In this document: in pieces, positions 12,379 through 20,908 of the stretch
How the letters are laid out: every line of letters starts with the position of its first letter
Numbering within the stretch: position 1 is the first letter of the stretch
Source: Acetivibrio sp. MSJd-27
GTDB lineage: Bacteria; Bacillota; Clostridia; UMGS1840; HGM11507
Direction: 5' to 3'
NCBI RefSeq assembly: GCF_018918095.1
Contig: NZ_JAHLPV010000025.1
Location: 1-42,194, forward strand
DNA: 42,194 bases
The notes under the pieces: generated by a model
Seen by the model: only the letters and a program-made list of their open reading frames with translations
Told to the model about the DNA's origin: nothing
Database searches by the model: none
Made by a program: the position numbers and the translations under genes

Positions 12379-15309
12379 ATGTGCTATAAACTGGGGATTG
12401 ATGTGGGCTCCACCACCTTGAAAGCAGTGGTGCTGGACCATAACAATCAAGTGATATATAAAAGCTATGAACGGCATTTTTCCAAGGTTCTGGAAAAAAC
12501 AGTTGAAAAAATAAGAGAGCTTGACCGCCTTCTGGAAGGACAGCATGTCAAGGCGGCCATCACAGGTTCGGCAGGGCTGGGCGTGGCAAATGCCAGCGGA
12601 ATGGATTTCGTTCAGGAGGTTTTCGCAACCGCGGGGAGCGTCAAACAGCTTTATCCCCAGACCGACGTCGTGATTGAACTTGGCGGGGAGGATGCGAAAA
12701 TCATCTTTTTGCAGGGAGCGATTGAGGAGCGGATGAACAGCACCTGTGCCGGAGGGACAGGCGCGTTTATCGATCAGATGGCCTCCCTTTTGAATGTTTC
12801 GGTGGATGAGATGGACGCGCTGAGCCTGAAGCATACCGATGTGTATCCGATTGCCTCCCGCTGCAGTGTATTTGCGAAAACCGATGTGCAGGCGCTTCTG
12901 AATCAGGGAGCCTCCAAGGAGAATGTGGCAGCCAGTATTTTCGGAGCGGTTGTTTCCCAGACCATTGCGGGGCTTGCCCAGGGCAGGCCGATTGAGGGGA
13001 ACGTGCTATTTCTCGGCGGACCTCTGGCATTTTTGGACGGCTTAAAGGAACAGTTTGTCAAGATTCTGAAGCTCAAGCCGGGAGAGGCAATTTTTCCGGA
13101 GCTGGCGCAGTATTTTGTGGCTCTCGGCGCCGCTTACTATGCGGAGGGCTTGGAGCGGACCTATTCCTATCGGGAGCTTTTATCCATATTTGAAAATCTG
13201 ACGGATTTGGGAGACAAACCCCAGGGGGCGGAACCGCTGTTCCGCAATGAAGCGGAACGGCAGGAATTCATCCAAAGGCATGCGAAAGCCCATGTGGAAA
13301 AGAAGAGCCTTGCGGGATACCGCGGAAAAGCATACCTGGGAATTGACGCCGGAAGCACCACCACCAAGGTTGTGCTGATGAGCGGCGAGAAGGAAATTCT
13401 TTATACTTACTATGCGTCGAATCAGGGAAGTCCGCTCAGCCGGGTGCAGGAAATTTTGAATGAAATATATGAGCAGGGCGGCGAAGGACTCATCATCGCA
13501 GGCAGTGCGGTGACCGGATACGGGGAGGAAATCATCAAGAACGCCTTTGATATTGATCTGGGGCTGGTGGAGACCATCGCCCACTATACAGCGGCAAAGC
13601 ATTTCAATCCGGAGGTCGATTTTATCATTGATATCGGCGGACAGGATATCAAATGCTTTGACATCAAGGACGGAACCATAAACAGCGTCATGCTCAACGA
13701 GGCTTGCTCCTCCGGCTGCGGTTCTTTTCTGGAAACCTTTGCGAAATCTCTTGGATACGATATTGAGGAGTTTGCAAAGCTTTCCCTGCGGTCGGAACAT
13801 CCGGTGGATCTGGGAACCCGCTGTACCGTATTCATGAATTCCTCGGTCAAACAGGCGCAGAAAAACGGCGCTTCGGTGGAGGATATCTCGGCAGGGCTTG
13901 CGCTGAGCGTTGTCCGAAATGCAATTTATAAAGTCATCCGTGCCCACAGCCCGGATGATTTGGGCAGGCATATTGTTGTGCAGGGGGGAACCTTCTTAAA
14001 CGACGCGGTGCTCCGAAGCTTTGAGAAGCTGATCGGGCGCGAGGTAGTGCGTCCGGATATTGCCGGCTTAATGGGGGCATATGGTGCGGCGCTGTTTGCG
14101 CAGAGCCATGTGCAGGGGGAAAGCCACACCATCCGCAAAGAGGATTTGAAGCATTTCACCCACACCTCCAAGGTGACCCGCTGTGGGCTTTGTACCAATC
14201 ACTGCGGGCTTACTGTCAGCACCTTTGCCAACGGAAAAAAATATATTTCGGGAAACCGCTGTGAGCGCCCCTTGAAAGGCGCGGAGGCGAAAGGGCTCCC
14301 GAATCTTTATCAGTATAAATTGGATAAGCTGAAGGAATACTGCCATGCAGAGGGCAAACGGGGGAAGATAGGGATTCCGCTGGTGCTGAACAATTTTGAA
14401 AACCTGCCCTTTTGGACGACCTTTTTCCGGGAGCTGGATTTTGAGGTAGTCACTTCGGATATGTCCTCGAGAAAGCTGCACGCGGCGGGGGAACACACCA
14501 TTCCATCCGACACGGTATGCTATCCGGCCAAACTGGTGCATGGGCATATCATCAATTTGCTGAACAAGGGGATAAAAACCATATTCTATCCCTGTATGAC
14601 ATATAATTTTAATGAAAATATTTCGGATAATCGGTATAATTGTCCTGTGGTTGCCTACTATCCTGAAGTGATCGAGGGGAATGTGAAGATGCCGGACGAC
14701 GTCACCTTCCTTTATCCCTATCTGGATCTGGAGAACGAGAAGGTGTTCATCAAAAAGATCCACGAATTCCTAGGCAGGCATTTTGACGGGCTTTCCCTCT
14801 GGGAGGTAAAAAAAGCCGCCAAGGCGGCCTATACCGCATATTATGCGTTTAAAGCCGACATCGCAAAGGAGGGAGAAAGGGCATTCCGGTACGCAAAAGA
14901 AAACGGATTGAAAACCATCGTGCTGGCCGGCCGGCCCTATCATATTGACGCGGAGATCAACCATGGAATCGATAAGCTGATCTCCACTTTAGGCTTTGTT
15001 ATTTTGACAGAGGACAGTGTCGCCGGTATGGGGGAGGAACAGAAGGTAAGCGTATTAAATCAGTGGACGTTTCATGCCAGAATGTACCGCGCGGCGGAGT
15101 GGGTAACCCGGCAGAAGAATACCCAGATGGTTCAGCTGGTATCCTTCGGCTGCGGGATAGACGCCATCACCACCGACGAGGTGTGCGACATATTGAGAAG
15201 AAAAGGAAAACTATATACCCAGATTAAGATTGATGAGATAAACAATCTGGGAGCGGTGAAAATTCGGCTGAGAAGTTTGCTGGCCGCAATGGAAGAAGGA
15301 TGTGATTGA
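12379..15309 (+). CDS. Two-domain acyl-CoA dehydratase activase (BadF/BcrA/HgdC-like, with DUF2229 region)
   Basis: A 976-residue protein with two ASKHA ATPase domains in tandem. The first starts GIDVGSTTLKAVVLD (6-20) and has the iron-sulfur cysteines Cys123 (STCAGGTG) and Cys162 (SRCSVF). The second starts LGIDAGSTTTKVVLM (about 320-334) with Cys443 and Cys482 (EACSSGCGS, TRCTVF). A cysteine-rich stretch RCGLCTNHCGL and a DUF2229-like C-terminal part follow. In HgdC such a protein, as a dimer bridging one [4Fe-4S] cluster, injects a high-energy electron into a 2-hydroxyacyl-CoA dehydratase using ATP. Here both halves lie in one chain. In many Clostridia one protein of about 1400 residues also includes the HgdB-like part, which here is the next gene, 1 base away. 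The substrate is unknown. GGGAGGAGG precedes the ATG. Confidence 0.9.
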   Translation: MCYKLGIDVGSTTLKAVVLDHNNQVIYKSYERHFSKVLEKTVEKIRELDRLLEGQHVKAAITGSAGLGVANASGMDFVQEVFATAGSVKQLYPQTDVVIELGGEDAKIIFLQGAIEERMNSTCAGGTGAFIDQMASLLNVSVDEMDALSLKHTDVYPIASRCSVFAKTDVQALLNQGASKENVAASIFGAVVSQTIAGLAQGRPIEGNVLFLGGPLAFLDGLKEQFVKILKLKPGEAIFPELAQYFVALGAAYYAEGLERTYSYRELLSIFENLTDLGDKPQGAEPLFRNEAERQEFIQRHAKAHVEKKSLAGYRGKAYLGIDAGSTTTKVVLMSGEKEILYTYYASNQGSPLSRVQEILNEIYEQGGEGLIIAGSAVTGYGEEIIKNAFDIDLGLVETIAHYTAAKHFNPEVDFIIDIGGQDIKCFDIKDGTINSVMLNEACSSGCGSFLETFAKSLGYDIEEFAKLSLRSEHPVDLGTRCTVFMNSSVKQAQKNGASVEDISAGLALSVVRNAIYKVIRAHSPDDLGRHIVVQGGTFLNDAVLRSFEKLIGREVVRPDIAGLMGAYGAALFAQSHVQGESHTIRKEDLKHFTHTSKVTRCGLCTNHCGLTVSTFANGKKYISGNRCERPLKGAEAKGLPNLYQYKLDKLKEYCHAEGKRGKIGIPLVLNNFENLPFWTTFFRELDFEVVTSDMSSRKLHAAGEHTIPSDTVCYPAKLVHGHIINLLNKGIKTIFYPCMTYNFNENISDNRYNCPVVAYYPEVIEGNVKMPDDVTFLYPYLDLENEKVFIKKIHEFLGRHFDGLSLWEVKKAAKAAYTAYYAFKADIAKEGERAFRYAKENGLKTIVLAGRPYHIDAEINHGIDKLISTLGFVILTEDSVAGMGEEQKVSVLNQWTFHARMYRAAEWVTRQKNTQMVQLVSFGCGIDAITTDEVCDILRRKGKLYTQIKIDEINNLGAVKIRLRSLLAAMEEGCD

Positions 15310-15310
15310 T

Positions 15311-16618
15311 ATGTTTGAAGAGATACAGAAGGTGGAGTTCACCAAGGAGATGAAGAAGGATTATACCATTCTGGTGCCCTCCATGCTGCCGATTCATTTT
15401 CAATTGATTGTGCCCATCCTGCGGGACAGCGGATACCATATCGAGATTGCCGGCGGGGATACCCGGCAGATTGTGGAGGAAGGGCTGGCTGACGTGCACA
15501 ACGACATATGCTATCCCTGTCTTCTGGTGATCGGGCAGATGATGGCGGCTTTGAAAAGCGGGAAGTATGATCCGGATAAGACGGCGCTGATGATCACCCA
15601 GACAGGGGGCGGATGCCGTGCGTCCAATTATTTATCCCTGATGCGCAAAGCACTCAGGAGTATTGGATATCCGCAAGTCCCTGTGATATCCCTGAACTTT
15701 TCCAATCTGGAAAAGAACAGCGGATTTCAGTTTACCGTTCCTATGCTGGTAAAGGCCGGAGAGGCGCTTTTATACGGCGATTTGCTGATGTGGATTTATA
15801 ACCAATGCGCGTCTCATGAGCTTCATAAGGGTGACAGCAAAAAAGTGCTTGACCAGTGCGTAGACAAGCTGACAAGACAGTTTCAGAAAAACAGATACGG
15901 CGGTTTAAAAAAGAATTACCGCTCTATTCTTGACGCATTCGCGCAGATACCGCGGGATGACGCGGAAAAGCCAAAGGTAGGGATTGTGGGGGAAATCTAT
16001 ATGAAATATTCCCCTCTTGGAAACAACCATTTGGAAGAATTTCTGATTCAGGAGGGGGCGGAACCGGTTGTGTCCGGTGTGATGGATTTCCTTCTGTATT
16101 GCTTTACCAACCGTTTTGTGGACAGGAAATTGTACGGGTTCAAGCGATTGACGGATCTTCCCACAAAGCTGGGAATTCAGATTCTTTACGGCTTTCAGAA
16201 CGGCATTATCCATGCAGTGAAAGAGCATGGGGTATTTCAGGCGCCTACGCCTTTCAAGCACCTGATAACCCTTGTGGAGGGGACGATCAGCAGAGGTGCA
16301 AAGATGGGCGAGGGGTGGCTGCTGACCGCCGAAATGCTGGAATTGATTGACAGCGGCGTGAACAATATTGTCTGCACGCAGCCGTTCGGATGCCTGCCGA
16401 ACCATATTGTCGCGAAAGGGATGACAAGAAAAATCAAAGACCGGTTTCCAAAAGCGAATATTGTTGCGATCGACTATGATCCCAGCGCCACAAAAATTAA
16501 TCAGGAAAACCGGCTGAAGCTGATGCTGGCCAATGCGAGAATGGAGGAAAAAAAGGCATCTGGTGTACATCAGCCGGAAAAACAGCCGTCAAAAATCGGG
16601 GAAGAAATATTGGTGTAA
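15311..16618 (+). CDS. HgdB-like 2-hydroxyacyl-CoA dehydratase-type protein
   Basis: A 435-residue protein corresponding to the C-terminal part of long activase/dehydratase proteins. It has the cysteines expected to bind an iron-sulfur cluster: NDICYPCLLVIGQ near residue 60, TGGGCRASNY near 100, and CTQPFGCLPNHI near 355. GVVGEIYMKYSP-like (here VGIVGEIYMKYSP) begins the second half. ATG at 15311 is preferred over GTG at 15302, since AAGGA lies 10 bases upstream of it. The arrangement TGATATG with the previous gene implies coupled translation. It probably works as a complex with that activase, but the reaction is not known. Confidence 0.85.
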   Translation: MFEEIQKVEFTKEMKKDYTILVPSMLPIHFQLIVPILRDSGYHIEIAGGDTRQIVEEGLADVHNDICYPCLLVIGQMMAALKSGKYDPDKTALMITQTGGGCRASNYLSLMRKALRSIGYPQVPVISLNFSNLEKNSGFQFTVPMLVKAGEALLYGDLLMWIYNQCASHELHKGDSKKVLDQCVDKLTRQFQKNRYGGLKKNYRSILDAFAQIPRDDAEKPKVGIVGEIYMKYSPLGNNHLEEFLIQEGAEPVVSGVMDFLLYCFTNRFVDRKLYGFKRLTDLPTKLGIQILYGFQNGIIHAVKEHGVFQAPTPFKHLITLVEGTISRGAKMGEGWLLTAEMLELIDSGVNNIVCTQPFGCLPNHIVAKGMTRKIKDRFPKANIVAIDYDPSATKINQENRLKLMLANARMEEKKASGVHQPEKQPSKIGEEILV

Positions 16619-18571: not shown

Positions 18572-18585
18572 AATAAATAAGAGAA

Positions 18586-18674
18586 TGAAACGGGGAGCTT
18601 GTAGACAGGCTGAGAGGAAACCGGCAGGTTTCGACCCGCAACCTGATTTGGATAATGCCAACGTAGGGAAATAT
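18586..18674 (+). promoter_or_regulatory. TPP riboswitch aptamer (THI element)
   Basis: The conserved core is plain: GGGGAGC, then GGCTGAGAGG (18608-18617), a P3 hairpin AAACC/GGTTT, GACCC, ACCTGATTTGGATAATGCCA (18641-18660), then CGTAGGGAA. It binds thiamine pyrophosphate. It lies ahead of thiW-thiM-thiE, with a terminator starting 16 bases after it, so high TPP should end transcription early. Confidence 0.97.
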
Positions 18675-18689
18675 CAGAGATTGATAAAA

Positions 18690-18716
18690 GCGTTTGCATT
18701 GCTGCAGACGTTTTTT
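18690..18716 (+). terminator. Riboswitch-controlled terminator
   Basis: CGTTTGCA (18691-18698), loop TTGC, TGCAGACG (18703-18710), one G-T pair, then TTTTTTCG. It is the likely expression platform of the TPP aptamer. A second small hairpin CGTTTT/AAAACG follows at 18717-18732. Confidence 0.85.
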
Positions 18717-18736: not shown

Positions 18737-18790
18737 GCTTGCCGCAGAAAAACAGGCGGAGGGGGAGCGCCCTGCACCTGTGGGGTAAGC
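18737..18790 (+). other. Structured leader segment after the terminator
   Basis: GCTTGCC at the start and GGTAAGC at the end can pair, and inside AGGCG can pair with CGCCCT. No known motif is recognised. Together with the next element it fills the leader between the TPP terminator and thiW. Confidence 0.35.
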
Positions 18791-18800
18791 TTTTACATAA

Positions 18801-18900
18801 ACAGCGATGGGAGTCCGTGTTTCGGAATGAGAGGAAGTAAGAGAACTTCGACCGACCAAAAATCCATACCGTGGGATCTTTTTGGGCGGATTGTCGCTGT
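18801..18900 (+). other. Second, degenerate TPP-like RNA element in the thiW leader
   Basis: An outer stem ACAGCGA (18801-18807) / TCGCTGT (18894-18900) encloses GGGAG (18809-18813), TGAGAGG (18828-18834), a GAAGT/ACTTC hairpin and GACC (18850-18853). In the true aptamer the same blocks come in the same order, and TGAGAGG to GACC is exactly 22 bases in both. The ACCTGAT and TAAT parts that bind pyrophosphate are missing; CCATACCGTGG stands in their place. It may be a decayed duplicate or a sensor of another ligand. Confidence 0.45.
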
Positions 18901-18952
18901 TCTATCGGAAAGTGGATTTTTGGGACAAACAAAAACAAAAGGAGTTTTCAAA

Positions 18953-19507
18953 ATGCTGAGACAAAAATCCACACTTTACAAAACCATTGTTCTTGCCATG
19001 CTGGTCGCAGTCGGCGTGGTGATTTCGCCAATTCTGCGCATCGAGGGAATGTGCCCTATGGCTCATTTCATAAACGTTACCTGCGCCGTCCTGCTGGGAC
19101 CTTGGTACTCGTTGTTGTGTGCTGTTCTGATCGGGGTGATACGCATGACGTTTATGGGAATTCCGCCTCTGGCTCTGACTGGGGCTGTATTTGGCGCATG
19201 TCTTTCCGGAATCCTGTACCGCGCGTCCAATGGAAAACTGATTTTCGCAGTATTGGGGGAAGTGATTGGGACAGGTATCATCGGTGCGGTTGCATCCTAC
19301 CCCGTGATGACCTATCTGTGGGGGAAAACCGGCTTGACCTGGATGTTCTATGTTCCCTCATTCACCATGGGGACTCTGATCGGCGGCTCCATCGCATACA
19401 TCTTCCTAAAAGCGTTGAGCAGGAATGGAATGCTCGCAAAATTCCAACTGAGCTTGGGGGCTAAAGTTTATGACAAACCGCATATTGGAACTAAAGCGGC
19501 GGATTAG
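18953..19507 (+). CDS. thiW: ThiW, ECF transporter S component for thiazole
   Basis: A 184-residue membrane protein with five or six hydrophobic segments, matching the ThiW substrate-binding component that works with a shared ECF energizing module to import the thiazole precursor (hydroxyethylthiazole). The run RIEGMCPMAHFINVTCAVLLGP (core: CPMAHFINVTCAVLLGP) with a conserved histidine near the substrate site is typical. AAAGGAG precedes the ATG by normal spacing. The TPP riboswitch upstream and thiM/thiE downstream support the call. It overlaps thiM by 38 bases in another frame. Confidence 0.9.
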   Translation: MLRQKSTLYKTIVLAMLVAVGVVISPILRIEGMCPMAHFINVTCAVLLGPWYSLLCAVLIGVIRMTFMGIPPLALTGAVFGACLSGILYRASNGKLIFAVLGEVIGTGIIGAVASYPVMTYLWGKTGLTWMFYVPSFTMGTLIGGSIAYIFLKALSRNGMLAKFQLSLGAKVYDKPHIGTKAAD

Positions 19508-20273
19508 AGAAAAAAAGCCGCTGATACACTGTATCACCAATCCGATATCCATCAACGACTGTGCCAACGCGGTGCTGGCGGTTGGCGCGAAGCCGATCAT
19601 GGCGGAGCACCCGCGGGAGGTCTCTGAAATCACGGCGAGAGCAAGGGCGCTCTGCGTCAATATGGGCAATATCACCGATGCCAGGATGGAATCCATCCTG
19701 CTGTCCGGCAAAACGGCAAAAGCGCTGGATATTCCTCATTGCATCGACATGGTGGGGGTGGGATGCAGCTCTCTGCGGCTGGAACTTGCACGGGAGTACG
19801 TCAGGCAGTGCAGACCCCAGATCATAAAGGGAAATTTATCCGAGGTCAAAGCGTTCTGCGGGCTTCCGGCTCACGCGGTTGGGATCGATGCCGGAGAGGA
19901 AGAAAACGCATTGCCGGAAACGATACGTATGGCAAAACAGCTTGCACGGGAGATGGATTCGGTTGTTTATATCACTGGAGCGGTCGACATTGCGGCGGGG
20001 AAGGAGAACGTTTTTCTGATACGAAACGGAAATCCGATGCTGTGCCAAGTAACGGGGACCGGCTGCATGGCAAACGTCCTGGCCGGAACCTTTTTGTCAG
20101 AGAGGAGGCCTTTGGAGGCAGCCGTTCTGGCGGCCGCACTGCTTGGCATCGCGGGGGAGACGGCTTGCGGGGAACGCGGGCTTGGAAGCTACCACATTTC
20201 GCTGATAGACAAGCTCTCCGTCATGACGGAAAAAGATATCAAAGAGCATATACGCATTGAGGAGATAACATGA
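19470..20273 (+). CDS. thiM: Hydroxyethylthiazole kinase ThiM
   Basis: A 267-residue kinase of the ribokinase-like fold. Typical stretches are PLIHCITNPISINDCANAVL (N-terminal, substrate site), GAKPIMAEHPREV, IIKGNLSE for nucleotide binding, and VTGTGCMANVLAGTFLS with the catalytic cysteine/anion hole region. It phosphorylates 4-methyl-5-hydroxyethylthiazole with ATP. The start lies inside the thiW end with GGGGG as a loose ribosome site. Stop and thiE start overlap in ATGA. The long 38-base overlap with thiW is unusual but both reading frames look intact. Confidence 0.95.
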   Translation: MTNRILELKRRIREKKPLIHCITNPISINDCANAVLAVGAKPIMAEHPREVSEITARARALCVNMGNITDARMESILLSGKTAKALDIPHCIDMVGVGCSSLRLELAREYVRQCRPQIIKGNLSEVKAFCGLPAHAVGIDAGEEENALPETIRMAKQLAREMDSVVYITGAVDIAAGKENVFLIRNGNPMLCQVTGTGCMANVLAGTFLSERRPLEAAVLAAALLGIAGETACGERGLGSYHISLIDKLSVMTEKDIKEHIRIEEIT

Positions 20274-20908
20274 AATTTGATTTGACACTGTATCTGGTGA
20301 CGGACAGCACGTACCACACCGAAGAGAGCTTTTTGTGGACAATTGAAGAGGCCTGCAAAGGCGGTGTCACACTGCTGCAGATACGGGAGAAAGAGCGCAG
20401 CGGCAGGGACTATCTCGCACTTGCGCGGAAGGTGAAGGAGATCACCGTTCGCTATGACATTCCTCTGATTGTGGACGACAGGATTGATATCGCTTTGGCG
20501 GTGGATGCTGCTGGGGTTCATGTCGGAAGAAGTGATATCCCGGTCTGCGAGGCGAGAAGATTGCTTGGAAGCGGCAAGATCGTCGGCGCCACGGCAAAAA
20601 CGGTGGAGCAGGCAAAAGAAGCCTTTGCAGAGGGGGCGGATTATCTTGGCGTGGGGGCTATTTATCCCACCACGACAAAAGTGATTACCGTGTTGACCGA
20701 GGTTTCCACACTGAACGCAATCTGCAAGGCAGTTCCTATTCCGGCGGTCGCGATCGGAGGACTGAACAAAGAGAATATGGATATTCTGAAAGGCGGGTGC
20801 ATGAGCGGGGTTGCAGTGGTTTCAGCGATTATGAAAGCAACAGAGCCAAGGCTTGCCGCGGAAGAATTGAAGAAGAAAATACAGTCGCTGAGAATGGCGA
20901 AGGATTAA
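20270..20908 (+). CDS. thiE: Thiamine-phosphate synthase ThiE
   Basis: A 212-residue TIM-barrel enzyme that joins HMP-pyrophosphate and thiazole phosphate into thiamine phosphate. Seen motifs are LYLVTDS at the start, GGVTLLQIREKE, PLIVDDRIDIALAVDAAGVHVG (core: DDRIDIALAVDAAGVHVG), VGATAKT, GVGAIYPTTTK and PAVAIGGLN, all in family order. With thiW and thiM it forms a thiazole salvage set; there is no thiC, thiD or thiG here, so HMP-PP must come from elsewhere. Confidence 0.96.
   Translation: MKFDLTLYLVTDSTYHTEESFLWTIEEACKGGVTLLQIREKERSGRDYLALARKVKEITVRYDIPLIVDDRIDIALAVDAAGVHVGRSDIPVCEARRLLGSGKIVGATAKTVEQAKEAFAEGADYLGVGAIYPTTTKVITVLTEVSTLNAICKAVPIPAVAIGGLNKENMDILKGGCMSGVAVVSAIMKATEPRLAAEELKKKIQSLRMAKD

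Follow-up and report, generated by a model that had tools for sequence, protein, structure and literature searches.

The thiW leader of Acetivibrio sp. MSJd-27 contains, behind an ordinary TPP riboswitch and its terminator, a second structured RNA that is a candidate riboswitch built on half a TPP aptamer. The window in which it was found is the whole stretch of DNA analysed here (42,194 nucleotides, contig NZ_JAHLPV010000025.1). We favour, with moderate confidence, the view that this element is a conserved cis-regulatory RNA, most likely a riboswitch class not described before, which uses the pyrimidine-sensing arm of the TPP aptamer and controls thiazole salvage. As judged from the collected sequences, it is conserved across Bacillota and recurs before thiW in well over a hundred genomes, and a so far undescribed metabolite sensor is more probable than a broken copy.

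The initial annotation had marked 18801-18900 as a second TPP-like element, with motifs in the order and nearly the spacing of the true aptamer. The positions were confirmed: GGGAG, TGAGAGG and GACC lie at 18809-18813, 18828-18834 and 18850-18853 in the second stretch, and at 18593-18597, 18611-18617 and 18633-18636 in the TPP aptamer, so that TGAGAGG and GACC are 22 nt apart in both, and GGGAG and TGAGAGG are 19 nt apart in the former and 18 nt in the latter. The UGAGA (pyrimidine-side) arm, said to be retained, is supported by sequence and covariation. The pyrophosphate arm is indeed gone, with ACCTGAT, TAAT and CGTAGGGA all absent and another helix in its place, and the closed outer stem is present at 18800-18807/18894-18901 (AACAGCGA/TCGCTGTT, or AACAGCGA/UCGCUGUU as RNA); this P1 differs between subclasses. 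The element extends over approximately 18753-18923 and is wider than the region first flagged (Table 1). It begins with a hairpin that was missing from the earlier reading (hairpin A) and whose loop GGAGCG is kept in 74 of 82 loci. The TPP-like arm then follows, formed by GCGA(U)GGGA, a hairpin with the loop UGUUY, UGAGAG, a second hairpin and (G)ACCG. The loop of this second hairpin (hairpin C) has a length of 6 nt in 78 of 83 loci, and its final base is A in 78/78.

Table 1. Features of the thiW leader and of the genes behind it (window coordinates)
Feature	Position	Strand	Basis
TPP riboswitch aptamer, ordinary, first control layer	18581-18686	+	Rfam RF00059, 60.9 bits
Intrinsic terminator of the TPP riboswitch, CGTTTGC/GCAGACG and T6	18691-18716	+	Sequence
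Hairpin A: inner stem AGGG/CCCT, G.G mismatch, outer stem, loop GGAGCG at 18764-18769	18753-18780	+	
P1 5' strand AACAGCGA, GCGA nearly invariant	18800-18807	+	Conservation and pairing over loci
GGGA, with GACC the P2-like base of the TPP-like arm	18809-18812	+	Invariant (83/83), but required by the search pattern
Hairpin B (TPP P3 counterpart): TCCG/CGGA, loop TGTTT	18814-18826	+	Covariation in 3/4 pairs, 100% of cells paired
UGAGAG, corresponding to the pyrimidine-binding motif J3-2 of TPP	18828-18833	+	Invariant, but required by the pattern
Hairpin C: 5 bp, 6-nt loop of the form NANNNA	18834-18849	+	4/5 pairs covary, 99.5% paired
GACCG, 3' side of the TPP-like arm	18850-18854	+	Anchor-based alignment
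P4 helix CCAAAAATCC/GGGATCTTTTTGG, at the site of the conserved P4/P5 arm of TPP; variable sequence	18856-18885	+	
P1 3' strand TCGCTGTT	18894-18901	+	Pairing over loci
TGGATTTTTGG, pairs exactly with the 5' strand of P4 and one further base (18856-18866)	18913-18923	+	MFE fold
Shine-Dalgarno AAGGAG of thiW	18939-18944	+	Sequence
thiW, ECF S component, thiazole precursor of thiamin	18953-19507	+	TIGR02359, 135.9 bits; PF09512, 163.6 bits
thiM, hydroxyethylthiazole kinase	19470-20273	+	NF006830, 255 bits
thiE, thiamine phosphate synthase	20270-20908	+	TIGR00693, 213.8 bits

The genome of the window contains thiC (569.5 bits) and no convincing thiG, since ThiG gave only a weak partial match (30.1 bits); the bacterium would therefore make the pyrimidine half of thiamin and have to salvage the thiazole. 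Upstream of the thiamin cluster, at 12379-16618, there are two large ORFs that, as a guess from their sequence, resemble activator/subunits of the 2-hydroxyacyl-CoA dehydratase type.

The second stretch matches the genome of another genus of the same family (90% over 59 nt), where a TPP aptamer lies 1.4 kb upstream of the matching stretch, itself placed between cytX and thiM, and the same element was found behind a TPP aptamer in the leaders of thiW homologues from other families. In genome G001 (L005:5640-5775) a TPP riboswitch precedes cytX and the element precedes thiM in the same cluster, without thiW. With a covariance model built from an eight-sequence alignment, the element was detected at 69-98 bits in 17 of the 391 genomes of the class (11 families), while everything else scored 47 bits or less; the lower-scoring group (20-47 bits) consists mostly of TPP aptamers according to Rfam and was left out of the counts. 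The element was also detected in 6 of 398 genomes of the phylum, in 59 of 350 genomes of the class of G757 and in 5 of 43 genomes of the class of G557. A DNA pattern scan of named genomes yielded at least 118 stretches, and among the matches listed were Clostridia, the genera Veillonella, Propionispira and Anaerovibrio, and Floccifex and Faecalibacillus. No viral contig carried the pattern. Two pattern matches from Chloroflexi (L115 and L139) were discarded, because they are true TPP aptamers.

The folding energy of the second stretch alone is only mildly unusual (z -2.3), and it is by the comparative evidence that chance is ruled out. Of two alignments, one was anchor-based and made no use of structure (83 unique loci), and the other was fitted to the model (88 distinct rows). 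Hairpins A, B and C covary on both; in the latter, from which the covariation counts are taken, 97% of 1753 cells were paired and 379 cells changed on both sides; none of 500 shuffles was as good, and slid controls reached at most 0.14, versus 0.61. In hairpin A two-sided changes were observed in 9/9 pairs (93.6% of cells paired), and this hairpin belongs to the element because its five outer pairs covary, although neither the search pattern nor the structure of the model contained them. The two P2 pairs are without variation and give no information either way, whereas all the other helices covary. Because GGGA, GUGUUY, UGAGAG and Y/R in two hairpin B pairs were prescribed by the search pattern, the invariance there is partly imposed, but the loci found by the model alone keep these bases with few exceptions; UGAGAG, for example, is retained in them, with CGAGAG in one. 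A candidate loop-loop contact, GGAGCG/UGUUY, would comprise five pairs, and 98.4% of the cells pair; register shifts do worse, with a chance level of 1.5% when the loops are random and of 27% when they are shuffled. No covariation was observed between GAGCG and UGUUY across the aligned loci. These results are suggestive of a kissing loop by which hairpin A might dock on hairpin B.

That a protein-binding or purely structural leader element, which senses no metabolite, accounts for these patterns is improbable. Conserved structure alone leaves ligand binding unproven, as such a leader would require, but the unpaired bases of UGAGAG, of the NANNNA loop and of GGAGCG are strictly constrained, as is typical of aptamers, and the combination of a TPP-like arm with a gene-specific association is typical of aptamers as well. 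We infer that the element binds a ligand.

The association with thiW, asserted from the window alone in the initial annotation, was extended to other genomes by computation. In 80 classified pattern loci the next gene was thiW (74), thiM (2) or a PhnDCE-type ABC transporter (4); in the loci from the model searches, a few of which may be from the same species as pattern loci, it was thiW in 33/33, so that thiW directly follows the element in 107 of 113 classified loci. The phosphonate-like PhnDCE-type transporters are found behind the element at L079, L127, L106 and L120, with strong intrinsic terminators in the leader, and such a transporter may import a phosphorylated thiamin precursor. On the minus strand of L138, downstream of 7738, the element precedes a stretch with no thiW match, after which come a HAD-like phosphatase and a thiamine-binding protein (PF01910).

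In 57 of 82 loci the pattern places a TPP aptamer no more than 600 nt upstream, and a T5 run separates it from the element in 49 of these 57 tandem loci. In a Floccifex porci leader (L107:3573-4002, minus strand) two TPP aptamers are followed by the element and then by thiW, i.e., three sensors share one leader. The other 25 of the 82 loci have no TPP aptamer within 600 nt, which argues that the element is independent of TPP and is not a decayed tandem copy. Decay or chance had been offered as the other reading of the window, and the loss of the P4/P5 arm and the 22-nt spacing common to the element and the intact aptamer would agree with it; nevertheless, conservation and strong covariation rule it out, and an element under tight sequence constraint, tied to thiW and often without a nearby TPP aptamer, leaves this reading a vanishingly small probability. 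The initial annotation had further supposed that a functional element would show covarying pairs across thiW leaders and would be kept wherever these leaders keep the TPP aptamer. The first part stood, and the covarying pairs argue against decay, whereas the second did not: five thiW leaders (L012, L013, L015, L016 and L018) have a TPP riboswitch without the element, which indicates that the element is an optional second layer.

Comparison with swapped partners supports alternative pairings. In the extended subclass (about 36 loci) P1 and P4 both form, and the 5' and 3' strands of P4 pair better than swapped partners (z -4.6). Over 34 loci, the same comparison gave z -3.3 for the alternative pairing of the P4 5' strand with the downstream strand, and z -5.9 for the pairing of the P4 3' strand with the strand downstream of P1; this pairing of the P4 3' strand excludes P4, as expected of a switch. 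In the window the alternative pairing is an exact 11-bp match between 18856-18866 and 18913-18923. In leaders of the compact subclass, the region of the ribosome-binding site (RBS) is the partner of the strand 5' of GCGA, with 2 of 300 swaps being as good (z -2.5), and no such signal was found in a control with the early codons instead of the RBS region; an example is CUUUUCGUA/UACGAAAAG in L122 and L080. In the leaders of Veillonella type the thiW start codon lies within UGUAAUG, the pairing partner of CAUUACA, and in L120 the P1 3' strand overlaps an antiterminator strand. The closing stem thus covers the RBS, the start codon or the antiterminator in several loci, and if P1 is the bound state, as in TPP, the switch would be OFF, a direction that we consider probable. 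Constrained folding gave 13 versus 5 for OFF and left the direction undecided. The downstream strand of the extended class (34 loci) did not pair with the Shine-Dalgarno sequence (SD) any better than swapped partners (z -1.1), and the SD of the window itself is about equally open in both folds. Two other means of closing the SD were discarded: sequestration by the 3' arm of hairpin C, seen in the window MFE, gave -4.59 for own and -4.54 for swapped partners over 79 loci, and a pairing with hairpin B, at 3 sd, is probably due to clade composition. A T6 run between the element and the start is present in only 13 of 79 loci.

In the mechanism that we propose, the pyrimidine-sensing arm of the TPP aptamer (P2/P3, UGAGA) would have been kept without its pyrophosphate counterpart, and the loop GGAGCG would come with an additional, separate hairpin on the 5' side, which may dock on hairpin B. 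The genes under control would be those of thiazole salvage, thiW-thiM-thiE-thiD. In the window, the TPP riboswitch and its terminator would act first and the element next, as a second input that works on translation, and the ligand-bound fold, with P1/P4 formed, would most likely keep the RBS closed as an OFF switch. The likeliest ligands that we infer are HET-P (or HET) or a thiamin-type compound, with HMP-PP after these; the initial annotation had proposed HMP or a thiazole precursor, a guess that the present results neither confirm nor contradict. HET-P or HET would fit both the OFF direction and the exclusive association with thiW/thiM, but the HMP pocket, which is retained, speaks against a ligand that is purely a thiazole. 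Thiamin, TMP or TPP would account for the OFF direction and for the presence of the UGAGA pocket, though not for so narrow a set of genes, and the exclusive association with thiW argues against a general thiamin ligand. HMP-PP would be in keeping with the pocket and with a gene logic like that of proven thiS gates (PMC6478431), but not with OFF. The most specific version of our proposal, that half a TPP aptamer and an upstream hairpin docked through GAGCG/UGUUY form, in a rearranged architecture of two arms, a new class that has switched its ligand to a thiamin precursor, for example HET-P, and acts as a two-input gate with TPP, is put forward tentatively, as a real possibility. If it is true, there would be an additional sensor in the thiamin salvage of gut and rumen bacteria.

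Two of these ligands lead to different readings of the tandem arrangement. A second sensor of TPP (or of thiamin or TMP) would make repression steeper, as in tandem TPP riboswitches; the OFF direction is in keeping with this, and both 213 tandem representatives of the TPP class and unpublished variants that favour thiamin or TMP have been mentioned (PMC9481103). We consider it rather unlikely, since every residue of the pyrophosphate arm is missing and the element, unlike TPP riboswitches, precedes thiW and not thiC or thiT. Alternatively, the kept pyrimidine pocket together with hairpin A would bind HMP-PP and, in the manner of the thiS motif, switch thiazole salvage ON. The genes and the tandem order behind a TPP riboswitch with a terminator, as in proven TPP/HMP-PP gates (PMC6478431), the kept UGAGA arm, and a genome that makes HMP and apparently not the thiazole all point in this direction; however, in the loci with a readable direction it is the RBS, the start codon or the antiterminator that the closing stem covers, which suggests OFF, and the element, unlike the thiS motif, is not a small hairpin embedded in a terminator. 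This second HMP-PP riboswitch is judged unlikely.

When compared with known systems, the second stretch matched no Rfam 15 family, even at E<=10; the TPP model gave no match over 18750-18905 at this threshold either (the RF00059 cut-off is 54.3 bits), and the element in the other loci examined had no RF00059 match at gathering. A search limited to openly available journal articles found no description of the element, the nearest being the thiS motif and the thiamin/TMP-selective TPP variants mentioned as unpublished. The TPP aptamer shares with it, in the same order and with nearly the same spacing, a P2-like base, a P3-like hairpin, UGAGA, an optional hairpin and (G)ACC, as well as P1 and a third helix in many loci. 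A common origin is likely, because this order and spacing of the P2/P3 arm match and the covariance model of the element also scores TPP aptamers, with up to 46.8 bits. The element differs from RF00059 in that the window and the aligned loci have no ACCUGAU, no P4/P5 with UUAAU and no CGUAGGGA, and in that it carries an invariant UGUUY loop, the extra upstream hairpin A and a hairpin C of fixed length with a NANNNA loop (the TPP side hairpin is variable), and precedes thiazole salvage genes. The two arms of the TPP aptamer pack side by side, and hairpin A might stand in for the arm that is missing. The tandem TPP-TPP arrangements and the thiamin/TMP variants resemble the present case in having a second thiamin-type aptamer behind a first one, but those are classed as TPP (PMC9481103), whereas the element gives no TPP match at E<=10. 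The thiS motif, i.e., the HMP-PP riboswitch, is an ON switch with a compact aptamer embedded in a terminator; its gates with TPP have been proven, including that of thiW in C. lundense (PMC6478431; for the motif see also PMC6429828). Like the element, it is associated with genes of HET-P supply, thiW among them, and often lies behind a TPP riboswitch that has its own terminator; the element, in contrast, is made of three hairpins without a regular U-tract terminator and looks like an OFF switch.
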